Shown here piece after piece: positions 12,421-56,031 of a stretch of DNA of 64,000 bases. How positions within the stretch are numbered: the stretch's first letter is position 1; each line of letters begins with the position of its first letter. The stretch spans positions 1 through 64,000 of the forward strand of contig JABSSW010000010.1 in NCBI GenBank assembly GCA_018902385.1, in the 5' to 3' direction. The translations under genes and the position numbers were made by a program. Origin of the DNA: Physcia stellaris. Lineage: Eukaryota > Ascomycota > Lecanoromycetes > Caliciales > Physciaceae. The notes under the pieces are model-generated. The model was not told the DNA's origin. It did no database searches and saw nothing but the letters and a program-made list of their open reading frames with translations.

Positions 12421-14826
12421 ATAATATCGATTGACAAATTACGTGCAAAAATAAAAACAATTACATTGTAAAAAATTAAAAATTTGTTAAATGATATTTC
12501 AACACAATAATCGTAAATTAATTTATTATGATAATATCGATTGACAAATTACGTCGCAAAAATAAAAACAAAAATTTTGGATTCGGGTTAGAGTTAAGAC
12601 GACAGACGGCAAAAACTCAGAAATTTTCAACTCGACTTTGCTTTGAATCAATCAAATCGTTAAGACATTCGTTCTGATCGACGTCAGGATAAAAAATCAA
12701 ATCGATTGTTTAAGCGTTCGTCTGAGCGAGAAAATTTGAAATAACAAATGATAAAAATCAAAATCTGATATCTGACAAATGCTCGATGAGAAAAGTTCAA
12801 TGTTGCAAAAATGAAAATGATTGACAGTGAGTGAATTTATTCAATTGCGAAATCGATTTTCGAAACTAAAATTCGATTTTCCAGTTTGCGTTCGATTCAA
12901 AATTTTCAATTCGAACATTCAAGATTCATAAACAATACATTGATAACATGATCAATTGAATATATAAAACATGATATTTGTAACGTCGATGATTCAAAAA
13001 AATTCAACGATGCAAAAATGAAAATGATGTGACAAATGCGTAAAAAATATTCAATTGCGAAATTTGATTCATACATTTAACAGCAAAAAAAATTGCGCGC
13101 TTGCTTTTAATCAATTTACAACAATCATCATTATTCAAAATGTAAACTATTCGAATACTCGTTGTTTGACGTTTTTAACGTTCGACGAAAAAATTCAACG
13201 TCGTAAAATCAAATTCGTGTGACAAAAGCGATTGAATATCAATGCGAAAATTTTGATTTCATACAAAATAACGATAATCGATTTTGAAGTTTGTTCGACA
13301 ACATATCGATCAACAATCATTTCAAATGAAATTTTCAAATAATCGTTATCGAAACTGATTTCGAAACATTCGAGAAAAAAATTTCAACGTCGTCGAAAAA
13401 TTGATTTAACGACTATGTGCAAAGTCAAATATTCAATTGCGAAAGTTTGACATCATTCAGAAATATGAACGTTCAACAGCAAAATTTGCGATCAATCAAA
13501 TCACGTCTAAAATTCATTCGTCGCGATCGTTTCGTAAATGAAATTTCAAAGAATTTAAATCAACGATTCATCGAATCGTTTTCTTATTTCATTTTTAGAT
13601 CATTTTTTTTGCAATTTTCGTTTGACGATTCAGATTTCGAACGTTCGCAGATTCGTTTTCAGTCTCGCCGAACAACGAACTCGAAACAATGAAATGAAAA
13701 TACAGTTTGCAAACAACATGAATTTAATCATGATATTTTCAAAATACTAAAAATGTTGTCTGCAAATTACATTTTTATTCATTGTTTTGAAATTTTCTGC
13801 ATTTATATTTTCATTTAATTTTGTTTCGAATTCGTTATCGAACATCGAGTCGATTGCAACAATTCGTTCCGATCATTGCGCACGATGAAATTTGTTGCGA
13901 TCATATAAATGTAATCATACATTCATTTTTCAACATTCAACGCGATCAGACATTTTCATTAAAACTTTTTCGAATTTTAATTGTAATTTTTTCAAATATC
14001 GAATTTCATCTTTTCTATCAATTTTTGATTTGCTTTCTATTTTTCTCAGATATTTGAAAATTTTTTTCTGACAGAATTTTTCTGTTTTTTTTGACAATAT
14101 TTTGTTTGCGAACAACACGATCAATTCTTTGCTCATCTGTCATTTGTTCACAGTGAAACTTGTCGCATTGTTGTGACAATAAATCGTTCATCAAATACAA
14201 TACAGTGAAGAAAAAAAAAAACAGCGAAAAAAGTTGACATTCAAAAATATAAAGCAAACAAGAGAGCGAACATCGACATCAATGAATCAATGAACGAGTT
14301 CAATACAAATACATCAATTTTTTTCATCAACACAACTTTTTTGAAATCACAAAATTCACGCTCTTTGTCATTTTGTTGAAATTCATCAAAATCGACATTT
14401 TTATTTACGTCACGAATTTTCAGAAAATTGTTTTTTTTCATGTGAAACGACGACATGAATCACATTCATTGACGACGACTGTGTCATCGACAATATTTCA
14501 AAAATTCGAATTTGCAACACGTTCAACATCGTCGCAATTTTGTTTTTTTTTTCAAACGTATGTAAAAAATTCAAAAATCGTTTCGTTTTCGATTCAGACT
14601 TTATCGTTGACGTTTTTAAAAAATTTAGAACGAACAGATTATTTCTCATCATCATTGATAACAGACAGCATGATGTCGAAAACAATTTCGTCTTCAAAAA
14701 TTTTTCTGATTTTCGAAATTGTATTAACACTGCAGGTAAAAGCATTACAACATTCTTTTTGAAAACGATATTTTTCATGTTTCAAATGTTAACATATCGA
14801 CAATCAATTTTTCAAAAACGTCGACA

Positions 14827-15327
14827 ATGATCGATGCGTTTATTTTCGTCGAAATCGCGTTTTCATTCAACGTTGCGATTTCGCAACGAATTTTTTCGTC
14901 ATTTCGTCGTCAAAATGCGTCGACGCAATTGTTGATGTCGTTTTTTCGCGTTAAAAATCAACTTTTTTTATCGTCATCGTTATTTACAATTCGTTCGCGA
15001 TTCGAATTATCGACGATGCAAAATTCATCGATACAATTTTCAAAACAATCAGAAAAATTTTCATTTTCGTTCATTTACATCGATTTCGACTTTTTTTCGA
15101 ATTTTCAAATTTTTTTCAATTTTTCGAGCGAGTCGGAAACAAACGCAAAATCAAATCGTTTTGATCATTTCAACAATGACGTGCAAAAAAACAATAACAA
15201 TCATTTGTCAAATGACAATTTTATTGTCAATCAATCAACAGCAAACATTTTGCATGAGATTTCGCGATTTATTTGCGTTTGTGATGAATTTATTCACGAT
15301 CGTCGTGCAAATCAAAACAATCGTTAA
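14827..15327 (+). pseudogene. Ser/Phe-rich ORF in left arm, probably decayed
   Basis: A 166-codon open frame is rich in Ser, Phe and Asn. Its inverted counterpart lies within 53416-53776 on the minus strand and is split between frames, so the reading frame is not conserved between the arms. Runs of Phe and Ser are what Pro- and Ser-rich codons become under C-to-T change. No family is recognised. It may be a chance ORF helped by the lack of TAG codons. Confidence 0.2.
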
Positions 15328-16198
15328 TGAAATCGTTCAAATAACATCATTTCAAAAAAAAACATCATTTCAAAAAAAAAAAACAAATGTTTTCGCAATC
15401 ATGATGAATTTTGCGCAATATTGACGTATGATGCAAAACAATCGTTCAAAATCATTTTTCAACATTGATGTTTTTTTACATTTTTCGACAATGTTACAAC
15501 GCGACGACTCGTTTCAAAATTATAAAAACATAAGCTGAAATCATCTATTTAGCGATGAATTTTCTTTGTATCGTCTCGATATCGTCGTTTTCGAAACTTT
15601 TTTCGAACAGACACAAATCAATTTTAATTGAAAATTGCGTCGACGTTTCGATGTCGACGATTTCGTTGTTCATTTCAAAACGTTAAAAAATTTGAAAAAC
15701 GATTTGAATTTGTCGTACGTTTCATTTTATTTTCAACGTGTGATGAACGATTCAAAAATGCTCATCGACGAACACAAATCGCATGAAATCATAAATTTTC
15801 GTCTAGAAATCGATTTCAATGATCGAAATTGAAATTACAATATTCACGTTTTTTTTTTTCACATGAAATTCTCGAAATTTCGTCATTTGAAAAATGCAAC
15901 GCAAAAGATTTGAATAAATCAAATTGTATTATTTGCGATTCGCGCAAACGTGTCGATCAATGTTCGAACGCGTCATTTTTTCAATTTTGAAATCGTCAAA
16001 ATTCAAACGCACAATAAAAAAAAAATTCACATGTATGATGTCGATCATTTCATGAACAATTTTCGATTCGTTTCAATCGACAATTTTGTCGTTTTTTGAA
16101 TTCAAATTGTCATTTTGATCAACGAATTTGCGAAATTCAAAAAATTCGTGTTGATAATTTTTGAATGAAATCAGAAATTGCATTTTCAACGATCAATT

Positions 16199-16393
16199 TT
16201 AAAAAAAACGCGAACGATTTTCATCATTCATTTGAAACAACGTTTTCGCATTTTCGACGAATTCATGAACGAAATCTGAATTGATTTCGAAATAAAATAT
16301 ATTTTTTGTTTGCATTATGTCGATTTCGCTGTCAAAAACATCACGTTGTTGTGAAAAACATCGTGTTTCGAACATTGAAAAACGCTTTTTCAC
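16199..16393 (-). pseudogene. Conserved ORF fragment shared by both arms (left copy)
   Basis: 64 codons beginning MKKRFSMFETRCFSQQRD. The same frame is open in the right arm at 52223-52417 (+) with three residue differences. A neighbouring piece upstream on the same strand (16436-16762, right copy 51881-52180) is in another frame, which suggests fragments of one older coding region. No family is recognised. Confidence 0.3.
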
Positions 16394-17269
16394 GACAAGA
16401 TTAACGTCGTTCGTCGAGTTCGCAACGCGACGTATTCATTTTTGTTGATTCGTGACGTCGAATTTTGTTTCGTCGAAATGACATTCATTAACGTTTTTCG
16501 AACGAACGATGAACAAACGTTTCACAAAATTTATGTCATGATTCGAAATTATTGATTTATTTTCGCTCGAGATGTCAAATTTTTCGTCAACACATATTTC
16601 GAGAATTTGTCGTTTAACGACGAAAAATTCGATCGATGACACATCGTTAATCGTCGAAATGATTTGATTTTTGAAAACGTGCACAACAAATTTAACGATG
16701 ATCAATCGACATCGTTCAAATTCAAAATTTATCAATTCAAAACGTGACGAACAATCAAACATCGTATCGACATTTCATTGATTGACGCGCACAATTTTTT
16801 TCATACGACGTCAATCGAAATCATCAATGATTTACGCAAAAAATATCGTTTACGTTTGTCAATTTTTCAAAAATTGAAATCGATGCACAGTTTCGTCGAA
16901 ATTGATTTTTGATTATCATGAATTATCAACGATTCGAAAATTCGAACGTCACACTTTTTTGTTTGTGAATTTTTTTTCGCAAATTTTTTTCGTCATCGTT
17001 CATATTGAATTTTGTTTAAAAAAAAAATCGACATTTTTATCACGATTACGTTCAATCGTTATTTTTTATTCATCGAAATCATGATCATTCAATGTCACAA
17101 TGATTTCAATGATTTGAAATTCGTTTTCGTTGACGAACAACGACGATACAATTTCATGATCAACGTTTTTTTTCGAATTTTTCAATTCATCGTGAACGAC
17201 ATTTTGTTTGTCACGATGAACGAATTGTGACAAAATATCGTCAAACGACGCGTCGTTCGACAATTACAT

Positions 17270-17776
17270 TTATTTACGATCGATTGAAATTTTGATTCGT
17301 CGAATGTCAAAATCGTTCGACGACACGAACTCAATTATAAAAAATGCATTTAAAAATACGATTATTTTTTTTTGTTCGTTCATTTCATCATTTGAAAATT
17401 CGATTTCTTGTTCGTTTTCGATTTTCGTTTTGCTTTTCGTTTGATTTTTGTTGTCGATGACATGCAAAATCGTTTCAAAAATTGTCGTGACATCGTTGCG
17501 ATTATGATCAAACAAAACAACACATTCAGATTGTTTCGCGATCGAGTAAAAGTTTTTATTTTCGACTATAACGACAAAAACGATATGATCAGTCACAAAC
17601 GCGTTCAAAAAATCATGACAATTGAAATCGAATTGATTGTTCAATTTTACATTCAAAATATTTGAAACATTTTCAAAACACGAATTACGAAACACATCAA
17701 AAATTTCGTCGAACGACAAAAACAAAATCGTCGTTTCATGTCTCGACTGTCGAAAAAAAAAATTGCAAAATTTCAT
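17270..17776 (-). pseudogene. Longest ORF of the arm, left copy (168 codons)
   Basis: The ORF encodes MKFCNFFFRQSRHETTIL and ends DIRRIKISIDRK. The right-arm counterpart (50850-51348, +) is present but split between two frames, so at least one copy is not functional. A following piece, SNDASFDDILSQFVHRD (17066-17263; right 51355-51552), is open in both arms. The stretch FVVIVENKNFYSIAKQ then VVLFDHNRND is the most protein-like part, but I cannot assign it to a family. Opposite-strand ORFs here are shadows. Confidence 0.3.
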
Positions 17777-18639
17777 GATTTCATTTATGTTTTTGTCGTC
17801 AAATTGTTCGATAATATCAAATTTAAAATTGTTTTTGAACGATCATTCAAAAAGTACGATTCGAACAACAACAAAACGAACGTTTTTGAAAAATATTATG
17901 TCAATGACAAATGAATCGATCGTTTTCGAATTTTTTTCGAATGAAACGATTTTTTTCGCGACAAAAAACGCATTTGAAACAAAATTCGATTTCGTCAATT
18001 TTTGCGTCGATTGCATTATATCGTTTTCATTTTAAAATTTTTTGTCGACGACACGTTTCAAAAAATTCTTTTTTTTGTCGTTCATTAAAAGTTTTTTTGT
18101 ATTTCATTTTTCGATTGCGATCATTTGTTTATCGAATTGAAATTCAACAAAAACAATAACATTCAACGTGTGATCGAAATCGTCGATCAAATCGAATTGA
18201 AACGAACGAATTGATTCATCGTTTGTTTTTTTTTCGACACAGTAAACGCGTATCGAAATCGCATCATGACGATGTTTCGATTTTCGTTCACGATACAAAA
18301 CGAAATAACGCAATGAATTCAACATCATATTCGCACAGAAAAATTGATCACGATCATTTTTACGAATGCATGAATCGTTTATTTTCGAAATTCAACAAAT
18401 TTGCATTTGCAGTCAATTTTACGATGTCAACGCGTTCAGAAATTTCATGTCGATATAACAAAAACAAAAAAACAAATCGAACGAAATCAATGATCAATCA
18501 GAAATTTCGACGAACGAAAACGACGAAAAAAAAAAAAAAAAAAAAAAAAATCGAAAATGCGTTTGTCATAATTTAATAGATTAAAATTTCAATTGAATTC
18601 AATTTTCATTTTTGTTCAACACATCATCACAATTCATTG

Positions 18640-18860
18640 CATTATTTATTTTGAATACATATCGTTTGCAAACAATGTGTTCATCGCATTATTAATATTT
18701 ATTTTGAATACATATCGTTTGCAAACAATGTGTTCATTGCATTATTTATTTTGAATACATATCGTTTGCAAACAATGTGTTCATTGCATTATTTATTTTG
18801 AATACATATCGTTTGCAAACAATGTGTTCATCGTATTTTGATATTTCGTTTGCAAACAAC
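18640..18860. repeat. Palindrome array 1: ~47-53 bp units with GTTTGCAAAC
   Basis: Five copies of GTTTGCAAAC (near 18664, 18717, 18764, 18811 and 18848) lie in units reading TTATTTTGAATACATATC before and AATGTGTTCATTGCA after the palindrome. This is the first array inside the inverted arms. Confidence 0.85.
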
Positions 18861-21430
18861 ATGTGCATAATTGTTCATGTTGATTGCGAACATCATGACG
18901 TGACGTACACGAAAAATTTTTTTTGATTTTTAACGAAACATTCAAATATGAATGCAAAAATGTTCATTTGAATGTTTTCATTTTTCAAATCATGTCGAAG
19001 TCGATTTGTTAAAATTTTTCAATATAAAAATTCGAATTCATCATCGATTCAATGATATTGTTCAAATTTATCGAATTAAATTTCAATAAAAATTTTTCAT
19101 TAACAAAATTTTGTTCATACGTAATCGTCTGTTTGCGCATTGTAAACAACGTTGAATCACAAAATCAAATTGTCGTAATGATTTGCATCATTTATTGATT
19201 CATTCGTATCATTAAATTTTCGATTCAAAACGTTTTCAATGAAATTGACTTGAAATTGTTTTTTGTGACGACATCAAATCGTCTGATTTCAATTTCAGCA
19301 TTTGATCGGACGAATCATTTAGAATTCACTTCTTTGAAACGTTTTTCGATAATATTCAATTTGAAATTCATATGAACAAAGTTCGAATATTTCCGAAAAA
19401 CGTTTTCGAATAAACTGATTTGAAAACATCAATCGTTTTCACATTTCATTTTGCATCATTAGCATTTTTCAAAAAATCACAACAATGAAATTCGCGCTTT
19501 TCAAATAACATTTTTTTTTTTTTTTTTTTGATTTTTTTGATCGAATCGTCATTAATATATCGTCGCTGACATTTTCGACATTATCAGCGATTTTATTTCA
19601 CTTTCGTGCACATTTCGAGTTTTCAACATTTGTTGTTATTCACGTCACGAGCATTTTTGCGTTTTCATCTGAAAACGCGTTTTTTTTTTTTCACACGTCG
19701 ATCGTTTAAACGATATTCGTTTTGACATTTTTTTTTTATCGTTTGATGACGTCAAGCGCGACAATATCGTAATTGAATTCGCATCACAAAATTTTTGAAT
19801 TTCATTTTATGTTCAAATCACGTATACACATTTCGAATGTCAATCATCGCATTCTCGACAGTCAAACAAATTTCAAAAATTCATGAAATGTATCAATGTT
19901 CATGAAATGTATCAATGTTCATTGATATTTTATTTTAATTTCTTACGTTTATTATTTGAAAAATGTAAAAAAATCGAATGTCATGTTCATTTTCATTCGA
20001 AATTCAATCATTTTATGAAAATTTTCGAAAATTCGAAATTTTTTAATTTGCACGTCATTTCATCATCAATTGTTTTCATGCGACAGCGTTTTACAAAACA
20101 TACAATTTTCGTGATTTTTTGCGTCGTATATTCAACAGCGACGACAAACATGAAAATCGCAACAATACGATATGTGTCGATTTCGAATCATTCACACATT
20201 CAGTTGAAAATTTAAACGAACATATTTCGTGTCGCATACAAAACATTTCACATTTTCAACGAATCGCGTCGTTCAATCGTTCGCGATGAAATGTGATAAA
20301 ACGATTATTCAATCACGATAATAACGACGAGCAATTTCTCGATTTTTCGACATTCACGAAAACGTTGATGCGCGATTGCTGATTCGTTTTTGTGTCGATG
20401 ATGAAAACATCACGAACTCAATTCGAATTTTCAAAACGATTGATTTTTGACATAAAAACATAATGACGATTGATTTCTATTCATGACGAAACTTATTGAA
20501 CGAAAGATTAGCATGTCAATTGCAATGAATCAAAAAAATTCGAAATCATACTTTACACGTCGAACACATTTTTTTGAAATTTATTTCGTAACATTTTCGA
20601 CAGATTGAATTCGATTCACATCGACATTCATGCTCACATGATTTGATTTCTGATGAACAGATTTGACATTTTCAATAAAACGAGACGCGAATTTTTTCAT
20701 CAAACGATTGCAAACACAGAAAGTATTTTTCGTTCGAAATTTTTTTCGTGAACATTTGACATCATCAGTCGTCGTTTCATCACACGATCGAAAAAGAATT
20801 TACATTTTTCGTTCGTTTCGATGTCGATTCATTTTTATCGTCGAACGTTCAGATTGACAAAATGAAATTGATTGACATTGTCATTTGCGACGTCGAGAAT
20901 TTCGAATTATCGTTTGTCAATGTTCATTTGTCGATTTCACATTCATTTCAAAGATTTATTTCGAAAACTCAGTGTTTTCAGTTGTTTTCTTTTCGTTTTC
21001 GAACGTTTTCTCGTCGTTTTCGAACGATTTTCTTGCGTTCAATTTTTCAAATGTCGAATTCAATTTATCGTCAATTCAATTCGTCTCATCAACAATCAAT
21101 TGATCATTCATTCATTCGCGACGATTTTCGAAACGAAAAACGATACATTTCTTAAACGAATTTGAAATTTATCATTCTCATACAAATGCGCGTACTTGTT
21201 TAATATTCGCTTTCGAATGACATTATTCTTCTTGATGAAATTGTCGATCACATAGTTCTCGACAGCTTGATTTAACGTTTCTTTTTTTTTTCGCAAACGA
21301 CGACGATATCTTGCATCTTGAGACGCAATTTCATGTAAATAAACTTGATTTGTCTGTCAAACGAGCATTCGAAAAAAGAACAATCGAAAAATTGTCTGAA
21401 CAGAATTCTGTTTGCAAATTAATCGACGCA
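18861..21430. other. No recognisable gene; CpY-depleted AT-rich DNA
   Basis: Short ORFs occur on both strands (up to about 110 codons) but none has a motif I know, and opposite strands are equally open. A minus-strand 62-codon ORF at 21108-21296 (MRKKKETLNQAVENYVIDNF) vaguely resembles a helix-turn-helix start, too weakly to call. Confidence 0.5.
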
Positions 21431-21439
21431 CAAAAATAG

Positions 21440-21612
21440 ATATCGTTTGCAAACAACAAATGAAAAATAAATATCGTTTGCAAACAACAAATGAAAAATA
21501 AATATCGTTTGCAAACAACAAATGAAAAATAATGTAAATATCGTTTGCAAACAACAAATGAAAAATAAATATCGTTTGCAAACAACAAATGAAGAATATC
21601 GTTTGCAAACGA
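21440..21612. repeat. Palindrome array 2: 31-bp units with GTTTGCAAAC
   Basis: Six copies near 21445, 21476, 21507, 21543, 21574 and 21601, in the unit ATATCGTTTGCAAACAACAA then ATGAAAAATAA. ORFs of 65-106 codons on the minus strand here are repeat translations. Confidence 0.9.
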
Positions 21613-24300
21613 ACAAAAAAAAAATGTCGTTTGTCGACAGTCGTTATACAAAAAACATTAATTTCGACATTTGTCATGATGATTTCTTCGACAATTGTCG
21701 ATTAATGAATTCGAAAATGTTTGTCATCGATGTCTGGACTTCGACTGATCAAAAACGCTATTCTCGATTTCATGAAAAATGAAACGTGAAAAAAAAAAAA
21801 CGATTGATCAGCAAATCTGAAACGTTCAATGATTCTCGTCGAGTGACACGCGTGCATCAAAGTTTCGCGCTAAAACATTTGATCGTTTTTAACGTGACAA
21901 TCGTCTCATTTACAATCATGATGTTTTACTTTATATTTCACGTGACTTCGTTATTGAATGTGTTCGTTTCATTGCACAAGCGTCAATTCTAATCGTCGCG
22001 TCCAGAATGATATTGTTTCGATCAACACAACTTGTTGCTCAAACAATCGAAAATCAAAAACACAATTCTAATTTTTTTTTTTCACGCGATCATTTTGATC
22101 AATTGCGACACTGACGAAAACGATGAACACTTCGCGACATTCGAAATTCTTTCATTTGTATTGCGCAATTTTATTAGAATCTCATCAACAAAAAAAGATT
22201 CAGCGTTTGTTTCAAAACGTGCAAATCATTTTAATCAATTTCATCGATTTCATTTTTCGCAACGACGAGAAAATCATTTTTGATGATTGAAACGCGAGAT
22301 TCAACGATTTTTTTCGTTCACAAGCATCGATTCGCGTTGATGATAACGAAATACAAAATTGCTGAAAGTTTTGAATATCATTTTTCGTCTAATGCAATTG
22401 CTCGCTTTTTCTCATGCGAAAACGACACAAACAACGACTCAAATCATTTTTTCAAATCGCAATCAACGACGAACTTTCAATAATCAAAACGTGTCGAAAT
22501 TCAGATTTGCGTCGATAATTTGAATGTTTACACACACAATCGACGAAAATGTATCAAATTTCATGTCATCTCGCTTTTCATTTCATCTTACGGCAGACGA
22601 GTTTTCAAATGTTGAAGACGAATAAACTCGTTCGACATGTACAAATTCACAAATTGATCAACACAATGTTGTTTGATCGCATTCGTTCAATTTCTTTTTT
22701 CGACAAATCGTTTTTTTATTCACATTTCTCTCAATTTTAAACGAAGCATTTCACGACAATGCAAATAGTCGTGTCGATAAATCAACGCGAAAAATTCTCA
22801 ATTGAATCTTTTCGTCAAAATTATGTTAGCTATGATCAGAATCATATCACGACGAGCATCGAATTAAATCGTATAATTTCAAATTCATAAACGCGCACAT
22901 CATCGACAATACGATCGTCACGAATCAACAATCACATGCACATTCAAAATTCGCGACATTTTCGAAATTTTTTCGACATGACTTTCATATTTGTCAGTGT
23001 CAAAAAATGTCGACACATAACAACGATTTTCAATTTGCGATGTTGAAATGCGATCGCGAACTGAATTTGAATACATATTGTTTGCAAACAACGTTTTTAT
23101 CAATTGTTGATCAATTGTATATTGTTTACAGACGACATGTTCAACGTAAAATTGAATGAAGCTTTAAAGTTATGAAACTCACAACGAGATGACGATTGAT
23201 CGAAGTCGCATTATTTCACATGAATATCGATGTTCGACGTGTGAATTTCATCTCGAGATTGAAATGAATAGTTTGTCATACAAGACTTTCTGATAGTTTT
23301 GATTGATCGTTTCAGCATTCTGTAAATTCGCTTGATTGTTTCAAATGATAAATGTCTGATATGTGATTTAACGTCATTATTCGAATCTATTCGCAATTGA
23401 TAAACATCGTATAAAATCACAAAACGAAATTGTTCAATATATCAAATGTTTTTATCACGTGAACAATTACAAATTTCGATCATTTCGTTTTCGTAAACGA
23501 TTTTTGTCGAAATGATTGCATGATTGCAATGAGCAATAATTTTTTCTGTTTTGTCGTTTTTGTTTTCGTACGATTTTCATTCACGAATTATCATTTGTCA
23601 TACAATGATTTCATCATTTATTCAGTCAATAGTCGTCATTCATTTTTTTATATGTGATTTCAAATTTCAATTCACGATCAAATCGTTTCTTTTCAATCAA
23701 TGTTATTTGAATTGATCAAATAAAATTCAACGCAAACGCGCGTTTTCGACGCGTTTAACATCGAAAAACGTCAAAACATTCAACACAACGTCAACATTTT
23801 TTAATTTGCAATTTCGATTCACGAAATCGACAACGTGTCATCATCGATAAATCAATTCAACGTTCGAATTCAATCAAACATGTTCGCGATTCTATTCTGT
23901 TTTTTGCAAAAACGTAAGTAATTTTCACGTTGTTTTCATAAATCAGCTAAATCATCAAGAAACACAATTGTTTCACGTCGAATCAGATTCACATCACGAC
24001 TTCACGAGTTCGAAACGAACAAACGAAAATTCAAACAATGAAAATTTTCGTTGTTGTCGACAAACATTCAATGACGTCATTTCATTTTTATTCTCGTCGA
24101 TTTTCAACATTTCATGCAAAAAATTGTTCTCGTAATCGTGTTGCGAAAAACAGTCGAAACGTCGTCAATTTCTCGAAACGAATTCACATGACGAAAAACG
24201 ACAAACGTTCAAATTCAATATCGAAATCAACATTTATAAATCGTTTGATTTCGATATTTCAAAAAAAAATCGTCGTCGTCACGAGTCATTCGCATGTTAT
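21613..24300. other. No recognisable gene; CpY-depleted DNA
   Basis: Only short ORFs without motifs are visible. A single GTTTGCAAAC with a related TTGTTTACAGAC word occurs at 23080-23135. Nothing else is supported. Confidence 0.5.
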
Positions 24301-24307
24301 CAACATG

Positions 24308-42365: not shown

Positions 42366-42699
42366 GATTTTGCAAAGCAAAAATTCGATCAAAAAAAACA
42401 AAAACTCGATCAAAAAAACAAATAATGTTGAAAATATCTGATTTTTTCGCATATTAATCGATTTGATTTTTTGACAAAATTTAATCAAAATCGAAAAGTT
42501 CGAATTTGCATTTTTTACATCGATACATTTTTTTTATCGATTTCTCGATCATTTTTTGTTTGTTTCATATCGTTGACATATCATATGAATTTTTTACAAT
42601 CAAATTGCATAAATATCGATTCATTGATGTTGCAAAAAATATTTGAAAATTTTGAAACACAATGATGTTATCAAATTATGATGTGATTTGCAATTTCGT

Positions 42700-45240
42700 T
42701 TAACATCGCAAAATTATTATAATTGTTTTTTTTTTTTTAATTTTATGTATTTTTTAATCAATTTTAAATATCAAAATTCACGTTAATGTTTTATTTCATG
42801 AAAAAACGCAAAACGTCGAAAACAATTTTGAAATTTATTTTAAAATTTTTTTTTTGAAAATTTGAATTTTCAATTGATGAAAATTATCGAATTTAAAAAA
42901 TACGATTTCAATATTGATTAAAATTTTTTTCGATCGATTATTCGCGTTAAACGAATTTACAAAATGTTTTATTATAAAAAAATTTTATTATATAATACGA
43001 ATATTGCGAATTTATTTATAACAAATTTTTTGTTTTTTTATAATTATTTTAAATAAATAAATAAAAATTCGTATTGTTTGAAAATTTAACAAAATAACAT
43101 TTATATACAAAAAATTTTAATGAAATTTTTCGATTTTTTGTTATTATAAACGTTTTTTTATTTTGTCGTATCGAATTTTTAAAATATACAATTGCATAAA
43201 ATATCAAAATTTATTGTTAAATAATTTTACAAAAAAATCGAAAATTTATTTAAATACAATATTACGAAAACAACAATAAACGATTAATTTAATTTTTCAA
43301 TATATATTTTTTAATAAACAATAAAATTGTATTTTGTAAAAATATTATTTTTAAAAAAATAAAATTGATTGACAAATTTAAATAAAAAATCGATTTCGTA
43401 TTTGTATTAATTTTGTCAACAATTAATTTTTAATTGTTAAAAAACATAATTAAAAAAACAACATGTATTAAAAAACGAAAAATTTATAAATAATTTTTTT
43501 GATTGAATGTTTCGTGTTAATTGTTACGAATTGATAATTAAATATTTTGATATAATAAATGCATTAATCGTTACAAAACAATTAAATATTAAAAAACAAT
43601 TAAAATCGTTATTATCAAAAAATAATTATATAAAACATTTTTTATAAAAAAATATTTATTAAAATCGTTTAACGCGAATAATCGATCGAAAAATTTTTTA
43701 ATTAATTTCGCGTTTGTATTTTTTAAAATCGATAAATTCAATCAATATTTAATTTGAATTTTCAAAAAAAAAACGATTATATTTTATTTTATCAATTATC
43801 AAAATTTTTGTGTTCGTATAATTGTTGTATATATTGTATCGTAAACAATAATTACGTATTATTTTTATTTATTTGATCAAAATTATAAAACAAAATAAAT
43901 ATATTTTAACGTTGAAAACATTGCAAAAATCGATTAATTATCGCAATAATTATAAAATGTATAAAATATATCGATTGTTAAAATATTTTGTTCGATTTGC
44001 AAAAACGATTCAATTTTAATTTTGAAATCGTTTGAAATAATTGTTTTTAAAAAAATTTCGAATTGTTTGAATTGAAAATAATTAAATATTTTGATATAAT
44101 AAATACATTAATTGTTACAAAACAATTAAATATTATAACACAATTAAAATCGTTGTTGTCAAAAAATAATTATATAAATTATAAAAATTAAAAATACGTA
44201 ATAATTAAACGTTACATGATAAATAAAAATACGTTTTGAAATAACGATAAAAATTGTTATATATCGTAATATAAATAATCAATATGTTTAATTATTATTA
44301 TTTAAAAAAACAAAAAACAATATATGAATTCGTGTAAAATTTTTAATTTTAACGTTAATGTTTTTTAATCGAAATATTTTAATTTTAATTTTATGTAAAA
44401 ATTTATTTCAATTTACGTTTTGTATTTCAAAAAAATACAAAAAATATTTATTTTACGTATAATCAACAATAATAATTGCAAATAATTAAATATAAATAAA
44501 ATAATTGCAAATTATTAAATATAAATAAAATAATATAAATTCGTAAAAACATGAAAAAAATTTTAATTATTGTATTAATTTATAATTTCAATATTAAAAT
44601 AAAAATAACATAAAAAAAATAAATATTACGTAAAAATTTGATAAAATCAAAAAAAAATCAAATTATATTAATCGTAAAACATAATTATTTTCATATTGAA
44701 CGTTGATAAAATAAAATATAATTATTTATAAAACACGTTAAACGATAAAATAAATAAATTAAATAATATATTTACAAAAATAAAAAACAAAATAAATTCA
44801 ATTTTACATTTGACGTTAATGATTAATTTAAATCGAAATATCAATTTGATTTAATTATTTTCAAATTCAAATGCATTTTTATTTTTATTTTTATTTTTAT
44901 TTTTATTTGAATATAAATATATATTTAATCGAAACAATTTCAAATCGATTATTTACGTGAAACGATTTGAAAAATTTTATTTTATAAATATATTATATTT
45001 CAACAAAATCAAAAAACAATATAAAAAATAATAAAATTGTAAATTTTTAAATTATGTAATTGTTTATATAATATACAACATGAAATATAAAATAAAATTA
45101 TAAAATTATATATATTCATCAATTTATCAATTTATCAAATGTAACGTTTTTAATAAATTAATTTATACAATTTATTAACAATTGTACGATAATTTTGTAA
45201 TTTTTATTACAACACGTTAAACATTTATATTAAAATTCGT
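42700..45240. other. Extremely AT-rich block
   Basis: The sequence is almost pure A/T with scattered CG. No ORF, RNA or simple tandem repeat dominates it. It contains an inverted repeat (42840-43770) and a ~100-bp direct repeat (43538-43640 and 44080-44180, sharing ATTTTGATATAATAAATRCA). It could be structural DNA, an origin-like region or the end point of mutational decay. Confidence 0.6.
42840..43770. repeat. Nested inverted repeat in AT-rich block
   Basis: CGATCGATTATTCGCGTTAA at ~42930 matches the reverse complement of 43668-43690. Weaker matching continues both outward (AATTTAAAAAATACGATTTC against AAATACAAACGCGAAATTAA reversed) and inward. The arms are ~160 bp with a ~600-bp spacer. 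Confidence 0.7.
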
Positions 45241-45289
45241 CAATTGACAATCAAACGATATTTCACAACAACGCAACGTATTGCTAATT

Positions 45290-45335
45290 ACGATCGGAAT
45301 AGCGGGGCGGCCCGACCCGGATCGATGGGCTTATT
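45290..45335. other. GC-rich pocket in AT-rich DNA
   Basis: A ~40-bp stretch reading CGGAATAGCGGGGCGGCCCG, then ACCCGGATCGATGGG, stands alone at the edge of the AT-rich block. It retains GG and CC runs missing elsewhere in the middle. It lies inside a 60-codon ORF (45244-45426) that I do not consider a supported gene. Confidence 0.6.
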
Positions 45336-45435
45336 CGCGAATTCGTTTCAATTTATTTGTTTGAATATGTTTTCGACGACACGTTTGAATTCAAATTTTG
45401 AAAACGAAACGATAAATGAATTTTGAAAATAAAAT

Positions 45436-48400
45436 TAAACGACGAAAAAAATTAAAACAATTTTTTCAAAAAAAAACAAGAATTTTTTCGAAATGAAAAT
45501 GATTGATATTGTTGAAAACGTTGAAAAACGATATTATAATTTCAAGAAAAATTCGTTTAATGAACATCATTCAAAAAAAATTGATCGAAAACGTTTGATG
45601 ATTGAAACATTTTCGTCAAAATAAAAACAAAATCACGAATATTTTCGATTTTGAAAAATCTCGTAAAAACGAACAAATCGTTGTTCAGAAAATCAATTCA
45701 TAACAACGAATTTCGCATTTGAATAAATCAACGATTTGTCAAAATTAAAAACAGATTGTCGATGAAATCGTTTTGATTTTTCTGAAAAACAACGTTCAAC
45801 AAAAACGTGTGCACGATTCAAATGAACATAATTACGTCAATTGTCAAAAATAATCGTTTCAAATCAAACGTGAAAGACGACGTCGTTATTCGTAAAAAAA
45901 AATCGATTAATTTTTGATTTTATGCAATTATCATTCGAAACGATTTTCGCGAAAGAGTTTCATGATAAAATTCGCAATCGATGATTTTTGTTAAGATTTT
46001 ATTCATTTGTTTGTTGCGAACGTAAACGATTCACGCGCAATTGATATTTGATTTAAAAACGATTTTTGTTTTTCATGTTTTCAACAAATTTTACACGATC
46101 GTTCATCAATTCAGACGAACGATCGTTCGACGACGAAACTGTTTAACGCAATACGAAAATTTGAATTGCTAAAAACATCATATCGCATCGAATGAAATCG
46201 TTTTTGTTTGAAATTCATTTCGACGATAAACGACAATGTGATCTAAATGCAAACGAACGAAACAAAAATTTCGATAATTGACGAAATGAAAGACATTTTT
46301 GTCGATAGTGACTGATTATCAATAATTGATTTTTTTAAATTAGAAAATTTACGATTTGTTGCGTTTTTTTTTTTCAGACAATCACAAAAATTGCGCAAAT
46401 TCAAGAAATCAAAAAACGACGTTTTGTCGAAAAAACATTTGTGATTTCGAATGAAAAAAAAATCGTAATTTGAATTTTCATTTTTTGTATCGTTTTGAAA
46501 ATCTTGTTTTAACGCGATCAACAATTTTGACAATGATAATTTTCGTTTTTTGAAAAGAAAATTCAAACAAGAAATTTTGTCGAAACATAAAACATCATCA
46601 CGAGCATTTTCGAACGATTCGTTTTTTTTTTCATTGCGTTGATTCGTGTTGCGAAATTTTGTTTGCGAATCGAACAATTGTTTCATGCATTCGTTTCAAT
46701 TTTGATCGATCAAATTCATAATTTTTCGTATTTTCAAATTAGAATTTCGATTTTGACGTTTGAAATGAATCGAAATCAAATCGCGATTGAAAAATCGTTT
46801 TCAAGTTTTGTCATATTGCGAATCGCATGTTTTGAACGATTTTTTCGTGTTATCGAATATTGATTTTCAGATAATTCGCTAACAATTCAAATTCGATTAT
46901 TTTAAAATCAATCAAAACAAATGTTTAAATTATTTGTCATAAAACGAATGAAAAGAATTTGATTTGTCTGCATAATGCAAATTTTGTTCGCGTTGTTTTG
47001 TTTGAAAATTGACAAATTAATTTTTCAAAATCGTCGTCGCAATTGAATTCGAATCATGAATTTGATGCGATGTCTGTGCGTTGAAAATTTTCGAAATTTC
47101 ATACACTTTGCATGCAAAATCTCGCAACAATCGTTTGTTGACGCATACAAACATATGACGATATTGTTTGATGATGATGACGAAACTCAACGTCAACGTG
47201 ATTTGTCGTTTCATGACAATGTCGAATTGATCGACGCTTCATATCTGTTCACGTTTCTCAAACAAATGTTCACGATCAATCGAATATTGCATGCAAAAAC
47301 AAAGAAAAGAAACAAACGACGAAACGTAAATGAAATATCGCATCAACAATTCATTCATTTTCGACAACAGAAAACATTTTCGAAACGAAAATCGACTTTT
47401 CGTAGATAAAGAATTTTGTGAAATCTTTGACGACGATCATCAATTTATGCGACAAATACAAATTGCGTGCAATTTTTGATTGCATCAAGTCGCGTCAATC
47501 AATTTTTACGACGAAAAACAAATTTGAAATTTGATACATCAGCACATTGAGCGTACGTAAAAATCGTTGAATTGTTAACAAATACGAATTGACTTTGAAT
47601 TGTCGAATTCGAAATTGAATTTTGTTTTGAAAAATTTTTTTCGCAAGATTGAAATGTTTTGAAAACGTTTGTACAATCAATCACGAATTGCATTCAATTG
47701 ATTGCGTGAATAAATCGAAAAAAATTTGTCGAATCTGTTGTCGAAATAATTGTCAACAAAATTGTTCACGAAATACAAAGACGTTTTACGCAAATTCAAT
47801 AACAAATCATTTTTCGAAAATGGCATTAATCGAATGAATCATAACGTTGATATTTTGTCGTCATTGCATGAAATTCAAATTGACATTTTGATGAAAAATT
47901 TGCATGCAATCGACGTTGATGATGATAATCGAATGTCGTATCGTGTCGTTGTTGATTTTTCAAATAAACAATCGTTCGACAATAAATTTCGATATAAAAT
48001 TGAACGTGTCGATATTGATTTTTCAAATACTTGATTCGTTGTCGACGAACGATTTTCTGCAAATTGATGATTTTTGAATTCGTCGATTTAGCGAATTTAA
48101 CGAAAAAATAATTCAAAAGTCATTGAATGTTGAATGTCAAAATTCATTCATTCAATCGAAAAGAGAAATTTTTGATCGCGATTCAGAATTCATTCGAACT
48201 GATCACATGCAATGCAACAAAATCAATGATCGAACAAATGAAAATTGAATTTTTCTCAACGAAAACGAATCAAAATGTGCGACAAAATGTTGATTGTTTG
48301 CACAAAAATTTTTGCACGCGATCGCAAAATGAAACGTTTTCGTTGAAAATTTTCTCGTTCGAATTTTCATCATCATTCGAATTCTCATCGTCAGAATTTT

Positions 48401-50090
48401 CGTCGTTCGAAAACGATAAAATGTTCAACAAAAACAAACGTTTGATTGTGATTTTTAAAACGTTCGTCGAAAATTGAACAAAAACAAATTCAACAATGTT
48501 TTTGATTTCGTTAATGTTTTTGATTTTCAAATCGAACAAATTCGTCAAATATCGAATTGTCAAAAAAAACAAGTCTCGATATTTTTCGATAGTTCAAAAA
48601 CAGTATCAGATTGATTCATAATGTGTCGTATCGTGTCATGATATTCTTTTTTGCATTTTTAGCAGAATTTTTGTCGTTGTGCGATTTTTTTCGAAAAATT
48701 GAAATAACGTGCAATTTGTCGATTGATGAATAAAGAAATTTTGTTCGAAATGATTTTGTCACGAAATTTCATGAGATTTTGTAAATCGCGACGATCGATC
48801 GAGATGTTTTCGAATTAAAATGATGAAATTTGTGACATGCAATCAGTTTTCATGTTATGTAAAATCGAATTCGACGAGTTCAAAATCATCGTTGTCGACA
48901 TTGAAACGTATCGAATCGTCAACAAAAATATTTTTAAAATTTTGAAATTCGACAACAAGATCGTCAAAAGAATGAAATAAAATCGAAAATAGCAAAAAAT
49001 GAAATACGATAATGTGATGCAAAAAGAAAAAACGAATTCGAAAAAATTGAAAATGCTTATCATTAAAAATTGCTGACAATAGATTTTCAGCGTTTTTTTG
49101 ATTTTTTTCAATTTGTCATTGATTGAATATCTTTCGTAATACGCAGTCAAAAGAATGTTTGATTCGCATAAACGTCGATTGAAAACATGTTGTCAAACGT
49201 TTGATTTCATGTTGCGCAATTGATTTCGTATTTTCGATTCATTTTCGTTTGCACGCGATTTTACATCGAAATGTCTGCATGTTGCGAATCGAAAAGATGA
49301 AAAAGATTTGATTATCGTTGAACGAAAAGAAAAAACTGAGAACGCAACGCAAACGAACGATATTCGTGAACAGAATGAAAAAAATTGCACGCAAATCGAT
49401 TGCACGTCGTTTTCATTGAACGAAATTTTGTTTTTGCGTTTTCGATGACGATTAGTCGAAAACAAATGTTTTGTTAATACGTCGATTTTTATTGAAATTA
49501 ATCGACTGTTTTATCGTAAATCGATAATCGAAATTCGAATTCGATGAGCAATTCGAATACACGTTCGATTTCGTTGAATGATTTGAACTTGACGAAAATC
49601 GCGAAAATCATGAGTGCGAATTTCGATCAAAACTTGAATCGTTTTTTTCATTTTGTGTTGATTTTTTAAATGACTTTCAATGATCGAAACGAATACGCAA
49701 TAAATGCTTTGTACAAACAAATAGACGAAATGAAAAATGATAATTGAAATTGCAAAATTTCATAAACGATCGAACGAAACGATAGTTTCGTGATGAAAAT
49801 TTAATGATTGAATCAGACGATTGAGTTTGCTGACAATTTTCTCGATGTTTTTGATTTTGACGTTGAGAATTGTCGTTTCGAAAATGACGAATTGATTTCT
49901 AAATATTGCAAAAATAATGACGTGTTTGATTTGCAAAGAAAATTTGCAAACAATCTAAAAGATAATGAATTTTCTGAAAAAACGTTAAATGATTTTTCAT
50001 TAACATGCGAAATGACTAATTGAAATTTATAATCAAATCTCTGACAAATCATTTTGATTTTTTTTTTTTAGAAAAATCACTTCGTTTTTC
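45436..50090. other. No recognisable gene; scattered open frames
   Basis: ORFs at 46243-46686 (-, 147 codons, starting MKQLFDSQTKFRNTNQ), 47056-47409 (+, 117 codons), 47750-48034 (+, 94 codons), 48127-48477 (+) and 48815-49150 (-) have protein-like stretches but no family I can name. A Cys-rich stretch (KICRICCRNNCQQNC, near 47727-47770) is in two overlapping frames. Probably decayed coding DNA. Confidence 0.35.
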
Positions 50091-50093
50091 TGT

Positions 50094-53000
50094 TAGTTTT
50101 CGTTCGTCGAAATTTTCGATCGATCATTGATTTCGTTCGATTTTGTTTTTCTGTTTTTGTCATAACGACATGAAACTTTTGAGCGCGTCGACATCGTAAA
50201 ATTGATTGCAAATGCAAATTTGTTGAATTTCGAAAATAAACGATTCATGCATTCGTAAAAATGATCGTGATCAATTGTTTTGTGCGAATATGACGTTGAA
50301 TTCATTGCGTTATTTTTTTTTGTTTCGCGAACGAAAATCGAAACATCGTCATGATGCGATTTCGATACGCGATTGTTGTGTCGAAAAAAAAGCAAACGAT
50401 AAATCAATTCGTTCGTTTCAATTCGATTTGATCGACGATTTCGATCACACGTTGAATGTTATTGTTTTTGTTGAATTTCAACTCGATGAACAGATGATCG
50501 CAATCGAAAAATGAAATACAGAAAAATTTCTGATGAGCGACAAAGACAAAAATTTTTTGAAACGTGACGTCGACAAAAAATTTTAAAATAAAAGCGATGT
50601 AATGCAATCGATTCAAAAATTGACGAAATCGAATTTTGTTTCAAATGCGTTTTTTGTCGCGAAAAAAATCGTCTCATTCGAAAAGAACTCGAAAACGATC
50701 GATTCATTTGTCATTGACGTAATACTTTTCAAAAACGTCGATTTTGTTGTTGTTCGAATCGTATTTTTTGAATAATCGTTCAAAAACAATTTTAAATTTG
50801 ACATCATCGAACAATTTGACGACAAAAACATAAATGAAATCATGAAATTTTGCAATTTTTTTTTTCGACAATCGAAACATGAAACGACGATTTTGTTTTT
50901 GTCGTTCGACGAAATTTTGATGTGTTTCGTAATTCGTGTTTTGAAAATGTTTCAAATATTTTGAATGTAAAATTGAACAATCAATTCGATTTCAATTATC
51001 ATGATTTTCTGAACGCGTTTGTGATTGATCAAATCGTTTTTGTCGTCATAATCGAAAATAAAAATTTCTATTCGATCGCGAAACAGTTTAATGTGTACTG
51101 TTTTGCTTAATCATGATCGCAACGATGTCACGACAATTTTTGAAACGATTTTGCATGTCATCGACAACGAGAATCAGACGAAGAGCAGAACGAGAATCGA
51201 AAACAAACAAAAAATTCGATTCTCAAATGATGAGATGAGCGAGCAAAGAAGAATAGTCGTATTTTTGAATGCATTTTTTATAGTTGAGTTCGCGTCGTCG
51301 AACGATCTTGACATTCGACGAATCAAAATTTCAATCGATCGTGAATAGATGTGATTGTCGAGCGACGCGTCGTTTGACGATATTCTGTCACAATTCGTTC
51401 ATCGTGACAGACAAAATCTCGCTCACGATGAGTTGAAGAGTTCGAAGAAAAACGTTGATCATGAGATTGTATCGTCGCTGTTCGTCAACGAAAACGAGTC
51501 TCAAGTCATTGAAATCATTGTGACATTGAGTGATCATGATCTCGATGAGTAGAAGATAACGATTGAGCGTGATCGTGATGAAAATGTCGATTTTCTCTCT
51601 GGACAGAATTCAGTATGAACGATGACGAGAGAAATCTGCGAGAGAAATTTCACAAACAAAGAAGTGTGACGTTCGAATTTTCGAATCGTTGACAATTCAT
51701 GATGATCAAAAATTAATTTCGACGAAACTGTGCATCGATTTCAATTTTTGAAAAATTGACAAACGTAAACGATATTTTTGCGTAAATTATTGACGATTTC
51801 GATTGACGTCGTATGAAAAAATTGTGCGCGTCAATCAATGAAATGTCGATACGATATTTGATTGTTCGTCACGTTTTGAATTGATAAATTTTGAGTTTGA
51901 ACGATGTCGATTGATTATCGTTGAATTTGTTGTGAACGTTTTCAAAAATCAAATCATTTCGACGATTAACGATGTGTCATCGATCGAATTTTTCGTCGAC
52001 AAAAAACAAATTTTCGAAATATGTGTTGACGAAAAATTTGACATTTCGAACGAAAATAAATCAATAATTTCGAATCATGACATAAATTTTGTGAAACGTT
52101 TGATCATCGTCTGTTCGAAAAACGTTAATGAATGTCATTTCGACGAAACAAGATTCGACATCACGAGTCAACAAAAATGAATAAATCGCGTTGCGAACTC
52201 GACGAACGACGTTAATTTTGTCGTGAAAAAACGTTTTTCAATGTTCGAAACACGATGTTTTTCACAACAACGTGATGTTTTTGACAGCGAAATCGACGTG
52301 ATGCAAACAAAAAATATATTTTATTTCGAAATCAATTCAAATTTTGTTTATGAATTCGTCGAAAATGCGAAAACGTTGTTTCAAATGAATGATGAAAATC
52401 GTTCGCGTTTTTTTTAAAATTGATCGTTGAAAATGCAATTTTTGATTTTATTCAAAATCATCAACACGAATTCTTTGAATTTCGCAAATTCGTTGATCAA
52501 AATGACAATTTGAATTCAAAAACGACAAGATTGTCGACGAAACGAATCGAAAATTGTTCATGAAATGATCGACATCGTATATGTGAATTTTTTTTTTTTA
52601 CTGTGCGTCTGAATTTTGACGATTTCAAAATTGAAAAAATGATACGTTCGAACATTGATCGACACGTTTGCGCGAATCGCAAATAGTACAATTTGATTTA
52701 TTCAGATTTTTTGAATTGCATTTTTCAAATGACGAAATTTCGAAAATTTCATGTGAAAAAAGAAAACGTGAATATTGTAATTTCAATTTCGATCATTGAA
52801 ATCGATTTTTAAACGAAAATTCATGATTTCATGCGATTTGTGTTCGTCGATGAGCATTTTTGAATCGTTCATCACACGTTGAAAATAAAATGAAACATAC
52901 GACAAATTCAAATCGTTTTTCAAATTTTTTAACGTTTTGAAATGCGCAACGAAATCGTCGACATCGAAACGTCGACGCAATTTTCAATGAAAATTGATTT

Positions 53001-56000
53001 GTGTTTGTTCGAAAAGAGTTTCGAAAACGACGATATCGAAACGATACAAAAAAAATTGATCGTTAAATAAATTGTTTCAATTTATGTTTTTATAATTTTG
53101 AAACGAGTCGTCGCGTTGTAACATTGTCGAAAAATGTAAAAAAACATCAATGTTGAAAAATGATTTTGAACGATTGTTTTGCATCATACGTCAATATTGC
53201 GCAAAATTCATCATGATTGCGAAAACATTTTTTTTTTTTTTTGAAATGATGTCTTTTTTTGAAATGATATTATTTGAACGATTTCATTAACGATCGTTTT
53301 AATTTGCACGACGATCGTGAATAAACTCATCACAAACGCAAAAAATCGCGAAATTTCATGCAAAATGTTTGTTGTTGATTGATTGACAATAAAATTGTCA
53401 TTTGACAAATGATTGTTATTGTTTTTTTTGCACGTCATTGTTGAAATGATCAAAACGATTTGATTTTGCGTTTTTTTCGACTCGTTCGAAAACTGAAAAA
53501 AATCTGAAAATTCGAAAAAAATCGAAGTCGATATAAATGAACGAAAATGAAAATTTTTCTGATTGTTTTGAAAATTGTATCGATAAATTTTTGCATCGTC
53601 GATGATTCGAATCGCGAACGAGCTGTAAATGACGATGACGATAAAAAAAATTGATTTTTGACGCGAAAAACGACATCAACAATTGCGTCGACGCACTTTG
53701 ACGACGAAATGACAAAAAATTCGTTGCGAAATCGCAACGTTGAATAAAAACGCAATTTCGACGAAAATAAACACATCGATTATTGTCGACGTTTTTGAAA
53801 AATTGATTGTCGATATGTTAACATTTGAAACATGAAAAACATCGTTTTCAAAAAGAATGTTGTAATGTTTTTATTTGCAATATTAATACAATTTCGAAAA
53901 TCAAAAAATTTTTTGAAAACGAAATTGCTTTCGACATCATGTTGTTGTTATCAATGATGATGAAAAATGATTTGTTCGTTTTAAATTTTTAAAAAACGTC
54001 AACGATAAATTTGAATCGAAAACGAAACGATTTTGAATTTTACATACGTTTGAAAAAAAGAAACGAAATTGCGACGATATTGAACGTGTTGCAAATTCGA
54101 ATTTTTGAAATATTGTCGATGACACAATCGTCGTCAAAAATGTGATTCATGTCGTCGTTTCACATGAAAAAAAGCAATTTTCTGAAAATTCGTGACGTAA
54201 ATAAAAATGTCGATTTTGATGAATTTCAACAAAATGACAAAAAACGTGAATTTTGTAATTTCAAAAAAAGTTGTGTTGATGAAAAAAATTGATGTATTTG
54301 TATTGAATTCGTTCATTGATTCATTGATGTCGATGTTCGTTTTTTTTTTGTTTTATATTTTTGAATGTCAATTTTTCTCGTTGTTTTTTTTTTCTTCATT
54401 GTATTGTATTTGATTGAACGATTCATTGTCACAACAATGCGACAAATTTCACTGTGAACAAATGACAAATGAACAAAGAATTGATCGTGTTGTTCGCAAA
54501 CAAAATATCTATCAAAAAAAAAAAAAATATTTGAAAAAATAAAAACAAATCAAAAAATGATTGATAAAGAAAATGAAATTCGAACGATTTGAAAAAATAT
54601 TACAAACGTTAATGCGAAAAAATTTTGATTTTCGATTAATGAAAAATGTCTGATCGCGTCGATTTTTACAAAGATGAATATTGATTACATTGCAAAATTG
54701 CAAATTTGATCGCGCGCAATAATCGAAACGAATTGTTGCAACGTGATTCGATGTCGAACAACGAATTCGAAACAATGAAATGAAAATATAATTTGCAAAC
54801 AAAAATTTCAAAACAACGAATCAAAAATGTAATTTGCAAACAACATGATTTTTATTCGAAAACATCATGATTAAATTCATGTTGTTTGCAAATTATAATT
54901 TCGATTGTTTGAATTCGTTGTTCGACGAGACTGAAAACGAATGCGATTGTTGACAATTTGAATCGTTTGATGTGCATTGCAAAAAACAAATGATTTAAAA
55001 ATGAAATAAGACACTCGACGTTAATGCTCGATAAAATAAAACGAAACGATTGAATCAAAACGAATGATTTTTAAACGTGATTTGATTGATCGCAAATTTT
55101 GCTGTTGAACGATCATATTTCTGAATGATGTGAAATTTTCGCAATTGAATGATTTTGCACATAGTCGTTAAATCAATTTCGTGTCGACGACGTTGAAATT
55201 TTTTTTCGAATGTTACAAAAGAATTTCGATAACGATTATTTGATCATTTCATTTGAAATGATTGTTGAACGATATGTTGTCGCGAACAAATTGAAAAAAT
55301 CGACTATCGTTATTTTGTATGAAATCAAAATTTCACATCGCATTGATTATTCACACATTAATTACACGAATTTGATTTTTACGACGTTGAATTGCGCTCG
55401 TTCAAAACGTCAAACAACGAATTTTTGATAATTTACATTTTTGAATGATAATCGTTGAATTGTAAATTGATTAAAACAAACGCGCAATTTTGCTGCTAAA
55501 TGTTCAGAAATTTGTATGAGTTCAAAATTTCGCAATTGAATCACTTTTTACGCAATTGTCACATCATTTTCATTTTTGCGAAATTGAATTTTTTTCATCG
55601 AACGTTACACATATCATGTTATCATTAAATATCATATGCAAATGTATTTTGAAATGACATCATGATTGTTGAATTGAAAATTTTGAATAAACGCAAACTG
55701 AAAAATCGAATTGTCATGAATTTGTATGAAGTTGAATTTTCGCAATTGAATAGCAATTTATTCACTTGTCATATCATTTTCATTTTTGCAGCATTGAATT
55801 CTTTTCATCGAGCGTTACAAATATCAAATTTCACATATTTATCATCTGTTATTTCAAATTTTGATGAGAAATCGTTCAAACGAATGATTTAAACAATCGA
55901 TTTGATTGATTTTATTCTGACGTCGATCAAAACGAATGATTGAAATTAACGATTTGATTGATTCAAGACAAACAAATCGAATTGAAAATTTCTAAGTTTT

Positions 56001-56031
56001 TCGTCTGTTCGTCTCGTAACTCTAATTCGAA
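50094..56031 (-). repeat. Right arm of the ~43.5-kb inverted repeat
   Basis: Reverse complement of 12573-18526 over its whole length (5938 against 5954 bp). Most of it is as CpY-depleted as the left arm, except a patch at about 51150-51640 that keeps AG and CT. Near its outer end (54790-54890) it carries three TTTGCAAA sites, where the left arm has one at ~13704. Confidence 0.9.
52223..52417 (+). pseudogene. Conserved ORF fragment shared by both arms (right copy)
   Basis: 64 codons matching 16199-16393 (-) with three residue differences (for example EIDVMQ against EIDIMQ). As in the left arm it follows a piece in another frame (51881-52180). No family is recognised. Confidence 0.3.

Follow-up and report, generated by a model that had tools for sequence, protein, structure and literature searches.

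A C-to-T mutation signature at CpC and CpT in AT-rich, repeated DNA of Physcia stellaris

The first 64 kb of contig JABSSW010000010.1 (C10; 908,572 bp) of the ascomycete Physcia stellaris, whose assembly GCA_018902385.1 comprises 43.97 Mb in 147 contigs, form the window analysed here. Most of the window has lost the cytosines that stand before a pyrimidine (CpY, that is, CpC and CpT). In the element copies examined, the underlying process is a directional C-to-T change on both strands that is set by the 3′ pyrimidine, C being the stronger determinant and T the weaker; this follows because CpC and CpT have changed, the 5′ base has little effect, and reversals and transversions are few. It is proposed, with a probability of roughly 0.7, that the process is a repeat-directed hypermutation of the repeat-induced point mutation (RIP) type in which the target has moved from CpA to CpY, with CpC first and CpT second.

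Depletion of cytosines before pyrimidines and the direction of change

The original prediction, made from the letters of the window, named positions 12573-56031 (no strand assigned) as a span in which CC, GG, CT and AG are nearly absent and CA, TG and CG are plentiful. The depletion is confirmed. In these 43,459 nt (GC 28.6%), CC occurs 12 times where mononucleotide shuffles give 945 (0.013) and GG 22 times where they give 829 (0.027), and near absence is an apt description of this pair; for CT (566 vs 2254 expected, 0.25) and AG (573 vs 2176, 0.26) it is too strong, as both are only about 4-fold lower. CA (3076 vs 2318, 1.33), TG (2658 vs 2111, 1.26) and CG (2751 vs 888, 3.1) all lie above the shuffle expectation, as had been claimed. 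The signature is present in the named span and is not special to it or to the inverted arms within it: CpY depletion covers most of the window, continues along C10 past 64 kb and is found in other genomic repeats, the clearest exceptions in the window being satellites near 1-827 and 10458-11062.

The direction of change is given by unmutated relatives of a mutated element. In a reverse-transcriptase family search of the genome, in which 150 of 527 candidates were scored, two unmutated copies of an element of the long terminal repeat type were identified, L033 (C12:59000-62500) and L034 (C5:1165200-1168700); they have a GC content of 52-53%, are 95% identical and, judged by eye from their reading frames, appear to be Ty3/Gypsy-like. 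A DNA search with this element returned 41 matches down to 68% identity, and the next six by rank were compared with L033. Pooled over these six copies, C has become T at 2429 of 2697 CpC and 1632 of 2386 CpT sites, compared with 127 of 2439 CpA and 63 of 2537 CpG sites, which is the context preference that the original prediction had expected of a substitution table. The fraction changed in single copies is 0.79-0.97 for CpC, 0.45-0.82 for CpT, 0.037-0.074 for CpA and 0.021-0.028 for CpG. In the control comparison of L033 with L034 the four contexts are nearly level (CpC 22/451, 0.049; CpT 19/400, 0.048; CpA 15/407, 0.037; CpG 12/425, 0.028), and CpA and CpG change in the six mutated copies at or near this background.

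Each copy of about 3.2 kb carries 555-801 C-to-T plus G-to-A changes vs 11-28 in the reverse direction and 22-30 transversions, so that the directional change on both strands by which RIP is recognised is found in all six; T-to-C stays at or below 0.042 in every context. The 5′ base has a small effect (CpC 0.88-0.92 and CpT 0.62-0.72 across the four 5′ bases), as has the base after next (CCC 0.82 vs CCA 0.95; CTA and CTT 0.72-0.74 vs CTC and CTG 0.65). Counts of CA, TG and CG are nearly equal in unmutated and mutated copies (CG: 213 in L033, 202-213 in the six).

These comparisons bear on whether the signature is mutational at all, or instead stems from composition (coding constraint or an AT-rich isochore) or from an artefact of assembly or sequencing. 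Some copies of a helicase element of the window retain long open frames, and local constraint may exist there; against this, comparison with the unmutated relative reveals a context-specific directional change in which CG is about unchanged while CC drops from 185 in L033 to 0-54 in the six mutated copies, and this explanation can be given almost no credence. On the copy-to-copy comparison with L033, an origin in codon or isochore composition was rejected.

The distribution of the signature was followed in a sample of 259 one-kb pieces, consisting of the window and 20 more stretches: the neighbourhoods of three methyltransferase genes, nine stretches along C10 from 64 to 154 kb, the first 10 kb of C1 to C7 and the end of C10. 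Pieces below 36% GC (157) were classed as AT-rich and those above 44% (89) as normal, and 13 intermediate pieces were excluded. The per-kb ratios of AT-rich to normal DNA (157 vs 89 kb) are 0.017 for CC, 0.174 for CT, 0.907 for CA and 1.104 for CG. For pyrimidines that follow A, G or T and precede A or G, the fraction present as C is 0.46-0.57 in AT-rich vs 0.40-0.66 in normal DNA; before C it is 0.007-0.07 vs 0.40-0.49, and before T 0.03-0.08 vs 0.43-0.57. In AT-rich DNA the fraction after a 5′ C, for pyrimidines that precede A or G, is 0.10-0.12, the result expected once the CpC pairs themselves have been lost. The signature recurs in nearly all sampled AT-rich DNA, other contigs included. 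The original prediction had held that the same depletion in single-copy genes would speak against it; the sampled normal-GC DNA, methyltransferase genes included, is free of CpY depletion. Decay of methylated CpG, or a process like methylation induced premeiotically (MIP), was rejected as a cause, given the CpG ratio of 1.104 in AT-rich DNA and the 63/2537 CpG changes in the Gypsy-like copies. The edges of depleted blocks are sharp to about 100 bp at four of the five edges viewed, and the fifth shows a gradual transition of about 400 bp. At the start of contig C3 (L027:2200-4550), two CpY-depleted blocks flank an island of 2.3 kb whose composition is normal, and the borders are likewise sharp to about 100 bp.

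Standard RIP indices overlook this signature because its target is nearly the reverse of the classic RIP rule. With the product (>1.1), substrate (<0.75) and composite (>0) indices, thresholds as in PMC8959702, none of 303 AT-rich windows is flagged; the older index pair of 0.89/1.03 (PMC2621366) likewise flags 0 of 303 AT-rich windows, together with 2 of 171 normal ones. A CpC index, defined as (CC+GG)/(TC+GA) with a cut-off of <0.2, marks 296 of the 303 AT-rich and none of the 171 normal windows. Heavily mutated DNA can thus be scored as RIP-free by indices based on CpA and TpA.

Strand-restricted tracts and the inverted arms

In the copies examined, the mutations lie in tracts of hundreds of bases and can affect one strand only. 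Two stretches of copy L036 (reference positions 1-440 and 1819-2113), picked out with the data in view, have top-strand CpY mutated at 1/49 and 0/44 sites, and on the bottom strand of the same stretches CpC is mutated at 67/72 and CpT at 18/38 sites. Compared with its close relative L037, L036 differs at 77/201 CpY sites inside the stretches vs 12/635 outside, and at 3/531 non-CpY sites inside vs 23/1807 outside. From these counts it appears that the two copies descend from a common mutated ancestor and then received separate new hits on one or both strands. On the hit strand of lightly mutated tracts, the fraction converted is 0.73-1.00 for CpC and 0.31-0.67 for CpT.

Strand tracts of this kind point to a burst over slow decay. 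In a slow process, a DIM-2-like enzyme would methylate CpY in heterochromatin and spontaneous deamination would erode the methylated sites, with no RIP-like burst. The genome does contain a gene that looks DIM-2-like by eye and a Pre-SET match, and a CpT preference has been reported for DIM-2 of Neurospora (PMC13297926). Slow loss is nevertheless hard to reconcile with one-strand tracts that end abruptly (CpC 67/72 on one strand vs 1/46 on the other), with 555-801 C-to-T plus G-to-A changes beside 22-30 transversions in a 3.2-kb copy, or with the four of five viewed edges that are sharp to about 100 bp, and we regard it as unlikely. The strand-restricted tracts would also suit a cytosine deaminase that acts on single-stranded DNA exposed in the homologous pairing or repair of repeats and leaves strand-coordinated clusters. 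AID/APOBEC enzymes read the 5′ neighbour; here the 3′ base decides and the 5′ base has the small effect given above, so that the dependence expected of an AID/APOBEC-type enzyme is absent, and a deaminase seems unlikely.

The inverted arms of the window are mutated as well. The left arm (13296-18532, plus strand) is one copy of a multi-copy element, and the right arm (50085-55282, minus strand) is an inverted second copy, mutated too and partly at other sites; 19 of the 20 listed inverted pairs fall in these arms. A 4501-base query from the left arm has 18 genomic matches besides itself, of which 11, the right arm included, cover more than half of the query. The arms were compared over 4966 aligned columns (4642 identical), restricted to stretches that are locally at least 75% identical, and with sites that have C in at least one arm as denominators; they differ at 161/183 CpT, 53/674 CpA, 25/719 CpG and 3/3 CpC sites. 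This element, independent of the Gypsy-like one, thus agrees with it in context preference.

The original prediction had read the direction of change from the arms. This does not hold, as the polarity is local: of all C/T arm differences, 147 have C retained on the right and 126 on the left, and both arms have therefore been hit. The examples on which that reading was based do stand locally, since a recount limited to CpY differences found six at 17359-17389, four at 17410-17443 and 17 at 17066-17263, all with C in the right arm (one exception each had also been noted in the latter two). They belong to one run of retained C. In the block 17000-17499 (plus strand), the right arm retains C at 40 of 41 CpY arm differences, that is, in its two 250-bp bins, at 16/16 and 14/15 on the top strand and 8/8 and 2/2 on the bottom strand. 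Over the whole comparison, retained C forms 22 runs on the top strand vs 42.4 expected (standard deviation 4.4; 0 of 5000 shuffles as low) and 26 vs 40.3 (standard deviation 4.4) on the bottom strand. The inverted arms as the cause of the signature were rejected, given that there are several multi-copy families, of which the arm element is one, and that the signature is found on other contigs.

A RIP-like mechanism and its relation to known systems

Four genomic matches to the DNA_methylase family represent three C5-methyltransferase genes. One of them, L010, has DNA_methylase and DUF7893 domains, a BAH match below cut-off and an open frame of 1118 aa, and by eye it appears DIM-2-like; L009 (C6:791557) and L011 (C5:499307) look RID/Masc1-like and are apparently intact save for likely introns. 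A single Pre-SET match is present in the genome. The two RID-like genes differ by eye in one motif, EQT in L011 and EET in L009. Genes of the RID type are reported to be restricted to Ascomycota (PMC4352252).

It is proposed that, as in RIP and probably premeiotically, duplicated copies are recognised, and that a cytosine methyltransferase of the DNMT1 class, with one of the two RID-like enzymes as the likeliest candidate, would run along one strand and convert C before a pyrimidine; repeated rounds would then clear the remaining CpT. A RID-like enzyme is favoured on account of the repeated nature of the mutated families and the sharpness of most viewed edges. Alternatively, the mutator may be a genome-defence system distinct from CpA-directed RIP, namely an enzyme, not necessarily a relative of RID or DIM-2, that treats the strands of paired repeats separately, working along one of them at a time, and targets C followed by a pyrimidine, with one hit enough to convert most CpC. 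This seems improbable to us; if true, it would represent a class of repeat mutation that is invisible to CpA-based indices.

Several points weigh against a RIP-type process. The spared CpA (127/2439 vs a background of 15/407) fails a usual defining feature of RIP; this weakens the case for classical RIP, which targets CpA and which had rightly been judged not to fit, and it does not weaken the case for a process that works like RIP. Some copies also exceed the background at CpA (30/407 at most, in L040, vs 15/407), and the arms differ at the 53/674 CpA sites given above; from these excesses a weak CpA activity is possible. The mutated families are multi-copy and the sampled normal-GC DNA is spared, yet two unmutated repeat copies exist: L033 and L034 are long and 95% identical, and the differences between them have no CpY or other context bias. 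Repeat status is thus not always followed by mutation, as these two escaped while 6/6 relatives are heavily mutated. The six are those most similar to L033, out of 39 other matches, and do not include the most decayed ones; the strand stretches of L036 were chosen after the data had been seen. The two 183-bp satellite arrays of the window are far less depleted than their surroundings. When the helicase element (L001) is compared with seven copies, the changed fractions are 0.20-0.60 for CpC (10-13 sites), 0.11-0.30 for CpT, 0.01-0.10 for CpA and 0.02-0.07 for CpG, which is the same context order with a smaller contrast than in the Gypsy-like and arm families. Finally, the RID and DIM-2 identities come from Pfam domains and reading by eye, and the enzyme and its timing are deduced from the genome sequence.

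In Neurospora crassa, RIP is ranked CpA>CpT>CpG>CpC, and CpC is also last in Trichoderma reesei (PMC5496416). The P. stellaris signature resembles RIP in these species in its C-to-T changes on both strands, its apparent concentration in repeats, its AT-rich scars and the accompanying RID-like and DIM-2-like genes (here assigned by eye), and differs from it in that CpC comes first and CpA and CpG are spared. Transposons of Botrytis, Sclerotinia and Magnaporthe, where RID/Masc1-type genes are present, have CpT-biased C-to-T changes (PMC4352252); CpT is a main target there as it is here, but CpA accompanies it, and the account available to us from that source describes no CpC signature. The same study lists CpA, CpT and CpG signatures across the genomes studied (PMC4352252). 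The RIP-like signature of Penicillium (Talaromyces) marneffei is a further precedent for CpT, although in the part of that account available to us there is no statement on CC/GG and no context table (PMC3464222), and alignment counts in RIP-capable species provide another (PMC7882544). The present genome seems to belong to a fungus more distant from P. marneffei: a 304-residue isocitrate lyase fragment has 76% identity to PDB 1dqu, from Aspergillus nidulans, and 73% to 5e9h, values that we consider too low for a member of Eurotiales, and the ITS1 primer pattern was without a match. Reports of a CpA bias concern Penicillium roqueforti (PMC3504111), Paecilomyces variotii in an experimental cross (PMC6300479) and Monilinia, there together with CpC-to-TpT double changes (PMC8959702), and a survey of 1,239 fungi describes a CpA preference as shared by RIP-like defences (PMC12543289).

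In Basidiomycota, mutation directed at CpG is known from Microbotryum, at TCG (PMC4352252), and for Rhizoctonia solani AG8 a bias towards CpG has been described by the authors, in genes as well as in repeats (PMC4014442). Both resemble the present case in C-to-T change in transposons or across the genome, and differ from it in that CpG here is at background (63/2537). In AG8, CpC is the most closely spaced class of heterozygous C/T sites (214 bp, vs 370 for CpG, 422 for CpA and 491 for CpT, uncorrected for site number; PMC4014442). This spacing table is the nearest parallel in the literature searched, in which no repeat-directed CpC-first mutation was found, and an earlier description is possible. 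The original prediction knew of no well-described fungal process that prefers CpC plus CpT: for CpT that was too broad, as the bias has precedents (PMC4352252, PMC3464222), and what stands out is that CpC comes first and CpA is spared. A genome in which the RIP preference is nearly inverted, and in which one DIM-2-like and two RID-like genes can be compared, makes the determinant of this preference testable.

Reading frames and other features of the window

CpY mutation can create a stop codon from TGG only, and transposon frames therefore decay differently under it. In the long frame of the Gypsy-like element (832 codons compared, nine of them Trp), the six copies have acquired 49 new stops, 48 by change of TGG to TGA and one by change of CAA to TAA. 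Over 149 of the 150 listed reverse-transcriptase matches, the stops are TGA 249 times, TAA 33 times and TAG three times.

The helicase element occupies positions 3537-10136 of the window. It includes an open frame of 923 aa (stop to stop) at 3537-6308 on the plus strand, with an OrsD domain, no Trp and four Pro, followed on the same strand by an open frame with DEAD and Helicase_C domains at 6309-7883. The element has 23 genomic matches including itself, at 75-100% identity, with copies on C12, C57, C142, C144, C53, C41 and other contigs. Its frames of at least 200 aa have no Trp and at most four Pro in eight copies, as if coding capacity had persisted under CpY mutation. As to selection on these frames, 87 of 154 differences between L001 and L008 fall at codon position 3, other pairs are less clear, and several of the eight copies are broken. 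A search of a plasmid collection with positions 4000-10200 gave no match.

The first of the two 183-bp tandem satellites (1-827, no strand assigned) lies at the contig start and has 12 CC and 37 GG in the first kb; the second array (10458-11062, likewise unstranded) has 13 CC and 21 GG in 10001-11000. Other tandem arrays of the window are depleted, for example that at 1861-3196, unlike these two satellites, which keep CC and GG. Rfam and tRNA scans of the window gave no match. A further CpY-depleted stretch at 56500-61000 (no strand) has three more full-length genomic copies at 94-96% identity. The composition of 43001-45000 differs from that of its flanks: over these 2 kb the GC content is 12-14%, CC, GG, CT and AG are all zero, and TA, at 136 and 153 per kb, is among the highest in the window.

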